NCBI GenBank assembly: GCA_030645775.1
Contig: JAUSLX010000057.1
Coordinates: 1 to 37,030 of the forward strand
From: Gallionella sp.
Lineage (GTDB): Bacteria; Pseudomonadota; Gammaproteobacteria; Burkholderiales; Gallionellaceae
Length of the DNA stretch: 37,030 nt
Reading direction: 5' to 3'
Every line of letters starts with the position of its first letter. Position 1 is the stretch's first letter. Below are positions 16,191 through 23,134 of the stretch, in pieces. A model generated the notes under the pieces. It was given only the letters and a program-made list of their open reading frames with translations. It made no database searches and had not been told where the DNA came from. The position numbers and the translations under genes were made by a program.

Positions 16191-17240
16191 TTATTTCCAG
16201 ATTGCCTTGCCCTCTGTGCTTTTGATTTGTGCCTTCCACGCGCTGCGGATCAATTTCACCACATCGTCAGGGATAGGTACATAGTCCAGATCGGAAGCCA
16301 GTTTGCCGCCATTGGCATATGCCCAGTCAAAGAACTTCAGCACGGCCAGAGCGGATTCAGGTTTTTCCTGCATCTTGTGTACCAAGATGAACGTTGCGCC
16401 GCTGATAGGCCAGCTTCCCTTGCCGGCTTCGTCAGTCAGAATTTCGTAAAAGCCCGGTGCCTTGGTCCATTCCGCACCGGCAGCGGCGGCCTTGAAGCTG
16501 GCTTCATCTGCGCCGACAAAGTTGCCGGAACGGTTCTTCATTTGCACGGCGTTCATCTTGTTCTGCAAAGCGTAGGCGTATTCTACATAACCGATAGAAC
16601 CCTTGATGCGCTGCACATAAGACGCGACACCTTCGTTACCCTTGCCGCCGGTACCGGCTTTCCAGGAAACGGCTGTCCCTTCGCCTACCGTGGATTTCCA
16701 GTCAGCGCTTACCTTGGACAGGTAGTTGGTGAAAATGAAGCTGGTGCCGGAACCATCAGAACGATGCACTACGGTGATGATGTCGTCAGGCAGTTTGATG
16801 TCTTTGTTCAGTGCCGCAATGGCCGGGTCATTCCACTTGGTGATCTTGCCCAGATAGATGTCAGCCAGCGTTGTGCCATCCAGTTTCAAATTTCCGCTGC
16901 TGATGCCAGCGACGTTGATGACCGGTACTACGCCGCCTATGATGGTCGGAAACTGCATCAGGCCGTGTTTTTCGAGATCTTGTGGTTTCAGTGGCATGTC
17001 TGATGCGCCGAAATCAACGGTTTTTGCAGTAATCTGCTTGATGCCGCCACCGGAACCGATGGATTGGTAGTTCATGCTGATGCCGGTTTGTGTCTTGTAA
17101 GCTTCAGCCCATTTGGCGTAAGCAGGATACGGGAAAGTCGCGCCGGCACCGGTGATGTCGGTGGCGTAGCTGATGCTGGCGTAAGCCAGTGCAGTGGTTG
17201 CGGCGAGGGTAATAACGAGTTGCTTGAGTTTGCTATTCAT
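16191..17240 (-). CDS. pstS: Phosphate ABC transporter substrate-binding protein PstS
   Basis: ITGAGATFPYPAYAKWAEAYK, GSGGGIKQITAKTVDFGASDMPL, VVHRSDGSGTSFIFTNYLSKVS. Confidence 0.97.
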   Translation of the reverse strand: MNSKLKQLVITLAATTALAYASISYATDITGAGATFPYPAYAKWAEAYKTQTGISMNYQSIGSGGGIKQITAKTVDFGASDMPLKPQDLEKHGLMQFPTIIGGVVPVINVAGISSGNLKLDGTTLADIYLGKITKWNDPAIAALNKDIKLPDDIITVVHRSDGSGTSFIFTNYLSKVSADWKSTVGEGTAVSWKAGTGGKGNEGVASYVQRIKGSIGYVEYAYALQNKMNAVQMKNRSGNFVGADEASFKAAAAGAEWTKAPGFYEILTDEAGKGSWPISGATFILVHKMQEKPESALAVLKFFDWAYANGGKLASDLDYVPIPDDVVKLIRSAWKAQIKSTEGKAIWK

Positions 17241-17351: not shown

Positions 17352-17369
17352 GTGACAGAATTATTACAA
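17352..17369 (-). promoter_or_regulatory. Putative PHO box upstream of pstS
   Basis: Minus strand TTGTAATAATTCTGTCAC matches the PHO box consensus CTGTCATAWAWCTGTCAY at about 16 of 18 positions; about 112 bp upstream of the pstS start. Confidence 0.75.
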
Positions 17370-19355: not shown

Positions 19356-20111
19356 TTATGACGGATTGCTGGTTTTGCGATCCCAGACGATGAGTTCCAT
19401 TTCGCCATTCAGGTGTTCGACGATAGCCGTGCAACTGTCAACCCAATCACCGCAGTTCATATAAGTCAGGCCGCCGATATCCTTGATGTTGGGCCAATGA
19501 ATGTGGCCGCAGATTACGCCATCCAGTTTGTTTTCACGGGCGTGGCGAATAAGCGCATCCTCAAAGTCAAAGATGAAATTAACCGCTTTTTTGATCTTGC
19601 GCTTGGCATATCCGGCCAGAGACCAATAACCCGGGCGGCGCAAGGAACGGCGCAGCCAGGATAGCCAGATGTTGATCCTGACCAGAAAGTTATAGAGGAC
19701 ATCTCCGAGCAGAGCGACCCATTTGTAGTGACGCGTTACCTGGTCGAATGCATCGCCATGGATCAGCAAAAATTTCCGCCCTGTTGCAGTCACATGAGTG
19801 TGCGTCAGCTCGATTTGAATGCCGCCAAACGAAGTGCCGGCATATTCCCGAACCACCTCATCGTGATTCCCGGGTATGAACATGACTGTTTCACCATGCC
19901 GCGCCCGTTTGAGTATTTTTTGCAGTACTGTGTTGTGATCTGCGCTCCAATACAGACCGCTACGGCTTATTTGCCAAAAATCAACGATGTCCCCCAGCAG
20001 AAACAGGTTCTCGGCAGGATGGTCGCGCAAAAAATCAAGCAGGCGGTCCGCCTGGCAGGCACGGGTACCCAAATGCACATCAGATATAAATATGGAACGG
20101 ACGGGTGGCAT
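19356..20111 (-). CDS. Metallophosphoesterase, UDP-2,3-diacylglucosamine diphosphatase-like
   Basis: SIFISDVHLGTRACQADRLLDFL, LFLLGDIVDFW, FIPGNHDEVV, LLIHGDAFD, GVICGHIHWPN, YMNCGDWVDS. Confidence 0.88.
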   Translation of the reverse strand: MPPVRSIFISDVHLGTRACQADRLLDFLRDHPAENLFLLGDIVDFWQISRSGLYWSADHNTVLQKILKRARHGETVMFIPGNHDEVVREYAGTSFGGIQIELTHTHVTATGRKFLLIHGDAFDQVTRHYKWVALLGDVLYNFLVRINIWLSWLRRSLRRPGYWSLAGYAKRKIKKAVNFIFDFEDALIRHARENKLDGVICGHIHWPNIKDIGGLTYMNCGDWVDSCTAIVEHLNGEMELIVWDRKTSNPS

Positions 20112-20115
20112 GGGT

Positions 20116-20256
20116 CTATATGGATGTTATCAAGGAGGAAATTGCCGGTAAGGCGACGATGATCGTCAGGGTGCAGACTACCCCCCAGCGCACGATTTTG
20201 AAAAAGAGTTGCAAGTAATTTCTCGTTTTATGAACACGATAATCGCGTGGCATCAT
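20116..20256 (-). CDS. Small hypothetical membrane protein (46 aa), overlaps olsB stop by ATGA
   Basis: Reverse-strand MMPRDYRVHKTRNYLQLFFKIVRWGVVCTLTIIVALPAISSLITSI*; ATG overlaps the preceding TGA; basic N-terminus then a hydrophobic helix. Not in the ORF track (<60 aa). Confidence 0.6.
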   Translation of the reverse strand: MMPRDYRVHKTRNYLQLFFKIVRWGVVCTLTIIVALPAISSLITSI

Positions 20257-21011
20257 TTAAGGAAATGCCTGGCATAACGGTCATTCATGCGTGACATCGG
20301 CAGCAGGATTAACAAGTCTGCAGTGTTGAATTCCGGGTCCCATGCCGGTTCGCCGCAAATATAAGCGCCCAGTCGCAAGTAGCCTTTGAGCAACGGCGGG
20401 ACAGGCGCATCGAGATACTGGTTCAGGGCGTGCAGCGGTAACGGACAACGGGGGAACACGCTGTATTCAACTGGTGCGCCGTATACTCTGTGCAATTTGC
20501 GATAGAGGCTGGCGGCGACATGACCACCGTCTGCCATACTGATACTGGCGCAGCCAATCAGATACTCGTGACTGTAGCGCTGCATGTATTGAGCCAGACC
20601 GCCCCACAGTTGAGTGATCGTCCCGCCATCGCGGTAATCCCGGTGCACACAGGAACGTCCCACTTCAACCATGCTGGCACTGAGATGCAGTAATCGGGTT
20701 ATATCAAATTCGGTCTGTGCATAGTAGCCGCCGATTTTCTGCGCCTGATTGGGTGAGAGGATGCGATAAGTCCCGACGACTTTATTCTCGTCGCTTTCGC
20801 GCACGATCAGATGTTCGCAGTATTTATCGAATATATCGCGGTCGATTTCTTCTTTTGCGCTGGGCAGGTTGGCACCCATTTCTTCGGCAAACACCTTGTA
20901 GCGCAAACGTTGCGCTTCCAGTACTTCGGCATGGCTATGTGCCAGTGTGGTGATTAGTCGTCGTTGAACGACAGGGTGATTTTGTCGGTTGAGTTCCAGC
21001 ATTGCATCCAC
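20253..21011 (-). CDS. OlsB-like GNAT acyltransferase (L-ornithine N-acyltransferase family)
   Basis: AQRLRYKVFAEEMGA, DKYCEHLIVRE, VVGTYRIL, VEVGRSCVHRDYRDGGTITQLWGGLAQYM, PPLLKGYLRLGAYICGEPAWDPEFNTADLLILLP. Confidence 0.85.
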   Translation of the reverse strand: MDAMLELNRQNHPVVQRRLITTLAHSHAEVLEAQRLRYKVFAEEMGANLPSAKEEIDRDIFDKYCEHLIVRESDENKVVGTYRILSPNQAQKIGGYYAQTEFDITRLLHLSASMVEVGRSCVHRDYRDGGTITQLWGGLAQYMQRYSHEYLIGCASISMADGGHVAASLYRKLHRVYGAPVEYSVFPRCPLPLHALNQYLDAPVPPLLKGYLRLGAYICGEPAWDPEFNTADLLILLPMSRMNDRYARHFLK

Positions 21012-21090: not shown

Positions 21091-21954
21091 TTATCTGGGT
21101 GTCTGACCCATGTCCTGGCTGATCAGCAACGCGTAGGCTGACTGGGATGAGAGAATCTCTTGATTAGGGCTGATTTGCTCCGGTTTTCGTTTATGCGGAG
21201 CGATGTTTGCCAATTTCAGTGCGATGGCTTGTTGGGCAGCACGTGACAGCACACGGCGATTCTCGTTGCTAGTTATCAATGCGGGAGTGAATATAACGAG
21301 TGAGTTAAGCTGTTGACAGCACAGAATCTGCCAGATGGATTGCGCAAGGGTTGTGTCACCGGTGAAAGCCGCCGCTGTGCTCAGTTCGCCTGCTTCATCC
21401 CGGTAGTGCAGTGCAATCGGGCACAGACTGACCCCTGCATCAACCGCAGGCTGGATGAGTGCCGAGTGGAAGTGGCCGACCTGCTTGCCGTCCGTGGTGG
21501 TGCCCTCGGGGAATAGCCCTACACTAACGCCTTGATTAAGCAGCGTGCTGATGCGCTGATTGATCGAGGCTGCATTTTGGCGCAGGGAACGTTCAATGAA
21601 AATAGTGCCGCTGCGTTCGCATAGCCAACCGATCAGTGGCCAGCTGCGGACTTCCGATTTGGCAATAAACAGTGAGGGATGAATCGCATTCAGCACGAAA
21701 ATGTCCAGCCATGAGACATGGTTGGCGACCATCAGACAACCCGTTCCGTCGCGCGCAGGCGGCAGCCCATCGATCTGGATACCAATATTGAGGATGCCCA
21801 ATATTTGTCTGCTCCAGTTTTTCAGGGTGCGGCGTTGCCGCGCCTGATCCATGAATGGATAAAACAGCGCCAGCAACATCCCGTGCAAGAGGTGCAGTGC
21901 GAGGCGGCAGCCACGGAATACGCTGACCAGTCTGTTCGGCGAGCGCTTAACCAT
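21091..21954 (-). CDS. 1-acyl-sn-glycerol-3-phosphate acyltransferase family (OlsA/PlsC-like)
   Basis: Motifs VANHVSWLDIFVL (NHxxxxD) and GLFPEGTTTDGKQVGHFHSALIQPA (FPEGTT); start MVKRSPNRLVSV overlaps the upstream gene by 8 nt. Confidence 0.88.
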   Translation of the reverse strand: MVKRSPNRLVSVFRGCRLALHLLHGMLLALFYPFMDQARQRRTLKNWSRQILGILNIGIQIDGLPPARDGTGCLMVANHVSWLDIFVLNAIHPSLFIAKSEVRSWPLIGWLCERSGTIFIERSLRQNAASINQRISTLLNQGVSVGLFPEGTTTDGKQVGHFHSALIQPAVDAGVSLCPIALHYRDEAGELSTAAAFTGDTTLAQSIWQILCCQQLNSLVIFTPALITSNENRRVLSRAAQQAIALKLANIAPHKRKPEQISPNQEILSSQSAYALLISQDMGQTPR

Positions 21955-23134
21955 AGCAGGCAATGTCGATTTCAGGCAGAGCCGATTCGCGCCGCTCGAT
22001 GAACAGGCTGTTGCCCGGTATTTTTTTGGCCATTTTCCGGGCGGCGCTAACCGCATCCGATACTTCGTGGTGCGAATCAAATCGGTCGGAACTGATCCAG
22101 ACCGCGCCAATCGTGAGCGTGGGTAGCGGGTGATGAACGATGCGACCTTGTCTGTCTTCCGTAAAATAGCCGCCGATCGAACGGTCTTCCTTGTCGAACA
22201 TTCTTGCTGACGTTTGTGCAAAGGCAGTGAGTGCCTGATTACAACGTAACGCCCAATCGGGGCTTTGCAGGACAAGAATAAAGTCATCACCGCCGATATG
22301 ACCGATAAAATCGCACTTTGAATCGCAGACCTTGCCGAGTAGCTTGCCGATAAACTGGATGAGTTCATCCCCCCTGTAATAGCCGTACTTATTGTTGAAG
22401 TGTTTGAAGTTGTCCAGGTCGCCATAACAGACAGCGAATGATTTGCCGGATTGAAGAAAATGTTCTATGTGTTCTTTGATCGGTACATTTCCGGGCAGCA
22501 AGGTCAATGGATTGGCATAGCGTGCTGTTTCGATATGTGCTTTGGTGATTTCACGCAACAGGTCTTGTCCGACGCCCAAACCGATATAGCGGCCTTGTTC
22601 GGTAATGATGAAACCGTCGGTAAAATGCCGGATGTCGGATTCGCTCAGGAATTCGCTCAACTCATGAATAGGGGTGGATTTTTCCACCAGCAGCGGTGCC
22701 TGATTCATTAGTTCGGCGCAGGTTTTTTTGCCGGGTAGTTCACGATGGAAAGGCTGTGCGAAACTATCGAAAAATTGATGTCGGTTAATCAACCCAACGG
22801 GATGCCCCTGCTCGACGACAGGGATGGAGCGCAAACTTTTGTCGGCGGAAAAGTGAGCGAATATTTTTTCAATCCCGGTGTCCGGCTGGAACGACTCTGC
22901 ATAACGTAACAGTGTTTCGACTGTGACGCTGCGTGAATTGCCCGGCGGTTGTTCAACGATGTTATTGGCGTTGGACAGGCAGTCGGCTTCGGCAGAAGCA
23001 CACGGCGGCGGGATGGGGGCGGGATGTGCGATCAAGTAGCTTTGTCCGCAGAAGATGTCTGCGTCGCGGAATTCTGCAATCGTATCTACACCTTTCTCAG
23101 CCATTTGTGTCATGCCTTTAAGTGTTTCCATCAT
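21947..23134 (-). CDS. CBS-domain/GGDEF signalling protein
   Basis: Paired CBS-like segments (RSIPVVEQGHPVGLINRHQFF; DGFIITEQGRYIGLGVGQDLL), then GGDEF domain (YGDLDNFKHFNNKYGYYRGDELI...IGHIGGDDFILVL). Confidence 0.88.
   Translation of the reverse strand: MMETLKGMTQMAEKGVDTIAEFRDADIFCGQSYLIAHPAPIPPPCASAEADCLSNANNIVEQPPGNSRSVTVETLLRYAESFQPDTGIEKIFAHFSADKSLRSIPVVEQGHPVGLINRHQFFDSFAQPFHRELPGKKTCAELMNQAPLLVEKSTPIHELSEFLSESDIRHFTDGFIITEQGRYIGLGVGQDLLREITKAHIETARYANPLTLLPGNVPIKEHIEHFLQSGKSFAVCYGDLDNFKHFNNKYGYYRGDELIQFIGKLLGKVCDSKCDFIGHIGGDDFILVLQSPDWALRCNQALTAFAQTSARMFDKEDRSIGGYFTEDRQGRIVHHPLPTLTIGAVWISSDRFDSHHEVSDAVSAARKMAKKIPGNSLFIERRESALPEIDIACYG

Follow-up and report, generated by a model that had tools for sequence, protein, structure and literature searches.

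A candidate envelope-stress microprotein family of Gallionellaceae, with one copy embedded in an olsA-olsB operon

The window, by which we mean the whole stretch of 37,030 nucleotides analysed, belongs to a Gallionella sp. genome assembly of 2.28 Mb in 269 contigs that is 92% complete (genome G000). Its minus strand carries an OlsA/PlsC-like O-acyltransferase ORF (21091-22425, domain in residues 218-339), an OlsB-like GNAT N-acyltransferase gene (20253-21011) and a gene for a calcineurin-like metallophosphoesterase with weak similarity to LpxH (19356-20111). The OlsB-like protein matches PF13444; its top NCBIfam models are OlsB, with scores below their cut-offs, and its closest named OlsB relatives are in Gallionella MAGs, at 98% and 96% identity. 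Taken from its first ATG, the olsA-like ORF overlaps with its 5' part a GGDEF gene on the same strand (21947-23134); thus, its true start probably lies further downstream, well inside the ORF. Family-model matches place a PRK14725-type pyruvate kinase among the window neighbours as well. Elsewhere in the window, pstS (16191-17240, minus strand) has a PhoB-box-like sequence, TTGTAATAATTCTGTCAC, some 130 nt upstream, at position 17369 (minus strand).

The only gap between the olsB-like and metallophosphoesterase genes is occupied by a minus-strand ORF at 20116-20256, which encodes a 46-residue product, MMPRDYRVHKTRNYLQLFFKIVRWGVVCTLTIIVALPAISSLITSI. The original prediction described this ORF as a membrane microprotein gene and gave its sequence and coordinates exactly. 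Also as predicted, the first ATG of the ORF overlaps the olsB-like TGA (ATGATG), and 4 nt separate its stop from the ATG of the metallophosphoesterase gene. The ATGA overlap is compatible with translational coupling to olsB, and the gene is embedded in the olsA-olsB operon.

Several lines of evidence support a genuine coding gene. Syntenic 46-residue orthologues are present in two close relatives, G010 (87% identity by tblastn) and G014 (78%), so the frame, whose loss from relatives of the same gene order would have counted against the prediction, is preserved. A profile built without any olsB-linked copy matches the ORF at E = 3.8e-11 among 1940 six-frame ORFs, the next-best window frame reaching E = 0.27. 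Residues 17-46 (20119-20208, minus strand), LFFKIVRWGVVCTLTIIVALPAISSLITSI, form a conserved core, as seen in the alignments and in dN/dS values of about 0.2-0.4 among G000, G010 and G014, which are based on few changes, 3-5 of them synonymous. Residues 1-16 (20209-20256, minus strand) are an N-terminal extension found in the copies of these three genomes only; alignments and substitution analysis show that it varies freely and is weakly constrained. At the canonical family start there is an in-frame ATG in G014 and an ACG in the window, so the 16 extra residues may have been added later, in front of an older start. Based on these observations, the coding status of the ORF is well supported, and the microprotein is presumably translated in vivo.

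The single hydrophobic helix of the original prediction is borne out both by hydropathy and by structure prediction. The 19-residue Kyte-Doolittle average is 2.27 for the window protein and exceeds 1.6 in all members of the family described below. AlphaFold, run on five sequences, returns one helix spanning residues 5-45 (mean pLDDT 79, pTM 0.37), a result that speaks to the helix and no further. The mean net charge is +2.7 before the conserved tryptophan and about -0.1 after it. By the positive-inside rule, this asymmetry points to an inner-membrane protein with its N-terminus in the cytoplasm and its C-terminus outside.

Weak tblastn matches within the genus proved to be ORFs of 36-40 residues at unrelated loci that have the same core. 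Together they define a family of about 85 copies, mostly 34-46 residues long (36 and 40 being the commonest lengths), with a single helix and the core F-V-R-W-x12-P-x3-S. The extracted set has 86 rows and 79 distinct sequences, with L117 and L215 representing one copy. The R-W pair is common to nearly all members; where it is present, proline stands at W+13 in 99% and serine at +17 in 88%. The window protein, with R23-W24, P37 and S41, belongs to the family by profile, R-W pair, proline and single helix. The median dN/dS of the 36-residue members is 0.21 (496 pairs, 440 usable). Copies with readable frames number at most three per genome and include tandem pairs (L203, L214, L216); decayed copies also occur (G035:C92, G010:C16).

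The distribution of the family is narrow. In a profile search, 60 of 159 Gallionellaceae genomes were positive, from 4 of 15 genera. Among 369 genomes sampled across the class, the window's own was the sole match, with none in the other 368; in 400 genomes drawn evenly from the order, nothing outside Gallionellaceae scored better than 3.5e-4, and the weak matches seen there lie mostly inside long frames. The window microprotein has no Pfam or NCBIfam match up to E = 0.1, and five other members have none above the cut-off. PHROGs, PDB sequences and Rfam were likewise searched for the family without an informative match, Rfam gathering scores being reached by tRNAs only. Within these searches, it is well supported that the family is seen only in Gallionellaceae, which are iron-oxidizing bacteria, and is apparently undescribed.

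No constant neighbour pointing to a target was found among the genes beside the copies. Three stand-alone copies (L171, L177, L195) follow a tRNA-Arg(CCT) at a distance of 154-235 nt, and the genes beyond these copies differ. Seven others (L172, L176, L186, L200, L223, L224, L229) precede a small gene, MTTVIDTLHNSAITENLSDTEI..., which by eye resembles cyclic-nucleotide-binding proteins; a 70-residue stretch of it has no Pfam match. A PhoB-type sequence like CTTCATCAAGTTGTCACA is common to several copies near a small regulatory-looking gene. Across the family, PhoB-type boxes with at least 11 of 14 matches occur at 14 of 86 copies against about 4 expected, a modest excess, and we do not claim PhoB-type control. 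Only 36 of the 79 distinct sequences end in a C-terminal tail like a PDZ ligand ([ST]-x-hydrophobic), and this feature was dropped as evidence.

Upstream of the copies, the DNA reads as GGAACTT and TCTGA boxes at fixed spacing. Of the 86 copies, 39 have a site of the form GGAAC[TC]-N15-19-TCTNA in the 200 nt before them, whereas dinucleotide shuffles give a mean of 0.11 and a maximum of 1. The site is exactly 28 nt long in 38 of the 39, most commonly GGAACTT-N16-TCTGA, and just 42 such strict sites occur in all the loci together (1.16 Mb, both strands). Four genomes were searched whole, with only 2-3 strict GGAACT-N16/17-TCTGA sites per genome; three of the four hold a stand-alone copy, and in each of these the microprotein promoter is among the sites. 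We take TCTGA to be the sigma-E -10 element and CTTAAG-N5-CTTAAG to be the direct-repeat form of PmrA/QseB boxes. The latter is found at about -65 in 4 of the 86 copies, against 0.02 expected, and is not among the features of the window copy. In total, 43 copies have a strict sigma-E-type or PmrA-type site and about half have neither.

The -35 element of E. coli sigma-E is quoted as GGAACTT (PMC2893595). The gene for sigma-E, rpoE, was found in all 12 Gallionellaceae tested. In several of them (L264-L270), a -35 box like GAACTTATTT is present about 130 nt upstream of rpoE, and the strict -10 of the microprotein promoters was not matched in these upstream regions, which suggests that rpoE may be autoregulated with a different -10. 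Since rpoE's own box lacks the strict -10, we ascribe the motif to RpoE on the strength of its agreement with the E. coli-type consensus, and another ECF sigma factor could be responsible instead. With this reading of the consensus, the motif evidence for sigma-E-type control of about half of the copies is strong, and we infer that these copies depend on sigma-E in vivo. The window genome has two strict sigma-E-type sites, one of which (G000:C63:5461-5488, L250) precedes a gene for cytochrome b561 (PF01292) and, after it, another membrane protein gene; G014 (L255) is arranged alike.

The sigma-E-type copies share further transcript features. Just past the predicted start, a 5'-terminal perfect stem of at least 6 bp is present in 27 of 38 distinct leaders, against 3.6 expected (maximum 9 in 200 shuffles). 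The 27 leaders contain 22 different stem sequences, indicating that pairing is kept while the sequence changes; this covariation is suggestive and not a strict test, as the shuffles ignore relatedness. A terminator-like hairpin with a T run follows within 110 nt of the stop in 32 of 39 sigma-E-type copies (7.5 in shuffles), and a Shine-Dalgarno-like motif, typically GAGGTG, precedes 76 of all 86 copies. As computed from these elements, the sigma-E-type copies form self-contained cassettes, about 300 nt long with the promoter counted.

The window copy differs from these cassettes. It has no strong Shine-Dalgarno motif, no 5' hairpin and no terminator of its own, the next gene being too close for one, and no strict sigma-E-type or PmrA-type site exists anywhere in the window. 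A strict promoter site is likewise missing from the other olsB-linked copies. G010 and G014 each carry, in addition, a stand-alone copy of sigma-E type upstream of uvrB. The window genome retains the flank of the uvrB locus, but the next 220 nt of the contig differ and hold no cassette; the operon copy is therefore the only one found in this genome, which is 92% complete. Without the promoter sites, the strong Shine-Dalgarno motif and the terminator, a stress role for the window copy would come by descent only.

Based on these observations, we propose as the probable reading that the family consists of envelope-stress-induced inner-membrane microproteins that tune a membrane partner, and that the copy in the window was captured by a lipid operon. 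The members would span the membrane once, with the positive N-terminus facing the cytoplasm and a short tail, rich in Ser/Thr, on the periplasmic side. Many stand-alone cassettes would be switched on by envelope-stress regulators, mostly RpoE and in a few cases a PmrA/QseB-type response regulator, and the product would enter the inner membrane during envelope stress. There, the near-invariant R-W, proline and serine positions of the helix may adjust the activity or stability of a partner. It is the regulation of the family that suggests the envelope-stress role; that the role is regulatory, and through which membrane partner, is more conjectural. In the lineage of the window, a copy with no promoter, hairpin, ribosome site or terminator to itself would have become translationally coupled to olsB, so the microprotein would now be made with the ornithine-lipid enzymes. 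Capture of a stand-alone copy by the operon is the direction of change that we consider plausible.

A more specific version, possible but unlikely in our judgement, is that the family is a main output of a small Gallionellaceae sigma-E regulon and feeds back on the envelope-stress pathway, acting on RseP or another sigma-E component as an inhibitor or a substrate-like ligand, some copies having been rewired to PmrA/QseB-type inputs or captured by the lipid operon. The idea is drawn from the short periplasmic tail and the N-in helix. RseP, the protease of the sigma-E pathway, cleaves many small membrane proteins, and its substrates are generally single-pass with N-in/C-out topology (PMC10470546), a preference that makes such feedback possible.

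The main rival to the proposed stress-regulator reading, which we regard as unlikely, is a family of type I toxins, hydrophobic peptides whose mRNA is silenced by an antisense RNA and which damage the membrane on release. The small size and single helix would suit a toxin, as would the multiple and tandem copies, the decayed ones, the narrow, patchy distribution and a transcript with a 5'-terminal hairpin and a terminator; predicted folds leave the Shine-Dalgarno motif unpaired only in part (mean 0.37). That motif is nevertheless near consensus, the promoters are dedicated, stress-type and of two kinds, R-W/P/S is strictly conserved, one copy is overlapped into a metabolic operon, and Pfam, NCBIfam, PHROG and Rfam are all without a match.

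It is improbable that the family is a dual-function RNA, whose transcript, about 250 nt and driven by sigma-E, acts as a small RNA with the peptide secondary. The architecture is like that of an sRNA, the 5' stem varies and still pairs, and the strongest sigma-E promoters of E. coli apart from that of rpoE drive sRNAs (PMC2893595). Constraint at the protein level (dN/dS 0.21), the ribosome-binding motif of 76 copies, the lack of an Rfam match and an ORF kept within an operon where the remainder of the transcript is missing all argue against this reading.

The original prediction also proposed a partner of the lipid acyltransferases, and this part was not supported. A membrane anchor or regulator of ornithine-lipid synthesis dedicated to OlsA/OlsB would account for the ATGA overlap in three genomes (G000, G010, G014) and for adjacency to olsB in five copies, which include a divergent 44-residue copy 42 nt behind olsB in G013 and L117, identical in sequence to G437/L215. 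Constant linkage to ols genes is expected of an accessory subunit, but only these 5 of about 85 copies adjoin olsB, and the microprotein is missing from most of the genus's olsB loci. The remaining copies, about 80, are at unrelated loci away from olsB, many under their own sigma-E-type or PmrA-type control, and a dedicated link to OlsB is thus very unlikely. Finally, it is hardly credible that the ORF arose by chance between two closely spaced genes. Its short length and nothing else speaks for this, and the leave-out profile match and the frame kept in relatives refute it as far as sequence allows.

If the stress-regulator reading holds, an unannotated, sequence-defined family would join the few known stress-induced small membrane proteins. 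It would offer a compact cassette placed at many unrelated sites under differing envelope-stress regulators, a testable entry point to envelope stress in iron-oxidizing bacteria, and an example of a stress microprotein brought into a lipid operon through start overlap with the preceding gene.

Comparison with known systems shows likenesses of several kinds. Sigma-E-driven sRNA genes resemble the family in having a short sigma-E-type transcript with a terminator; the family differs by its conserved, constrained ORF and ribosome site. Type I toxins (Hok, Ldr, TisB, TimP) are similar in size, in their one hydrophobic helix, in copy number and in narrow distribution, whereas the family has a good Shine-Dalgarno motif, stress promoters and an operon-embedded copy. 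PmrR, a PmrA-induced inhibitor of LpxT (PMC8129183), is likewise a small membrane peptide, and four family copies lie behind a PmrA/QseB-type box; in contrast to PmrR, most regulated family copies have sigma-E-type promoters, and the family is restricted to Gallionellaceae. MgrB of E. coli and Salmonella, 47 residues long, is induced by PhoP, inhibits the PhoQ kinase and has two conserved cysteines, C28 and C39, in its periplasmic region (PMC8404706), and its N-terminus reads MKKFRW (PMC6814738). Like MgrB, family members would be single-pass small proteins induced by a stress regulon, with a short basic N-terminus and a tryptophan at the cytoplasmic membrane boundary, and many of them begin with MKK and contain F-V-R-W. 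Unlike MgrB, the aligned members have no periplasmic domain with two conserved cysteines and no equivalent of W20, their regulators are of sigma-E or PmrA type, and the family is multicopy and dispersed, with no profile or family-model match. The family thus appears comparable in kind to MgrB or PmrR, a likeness of design that does not imply kinship with either.
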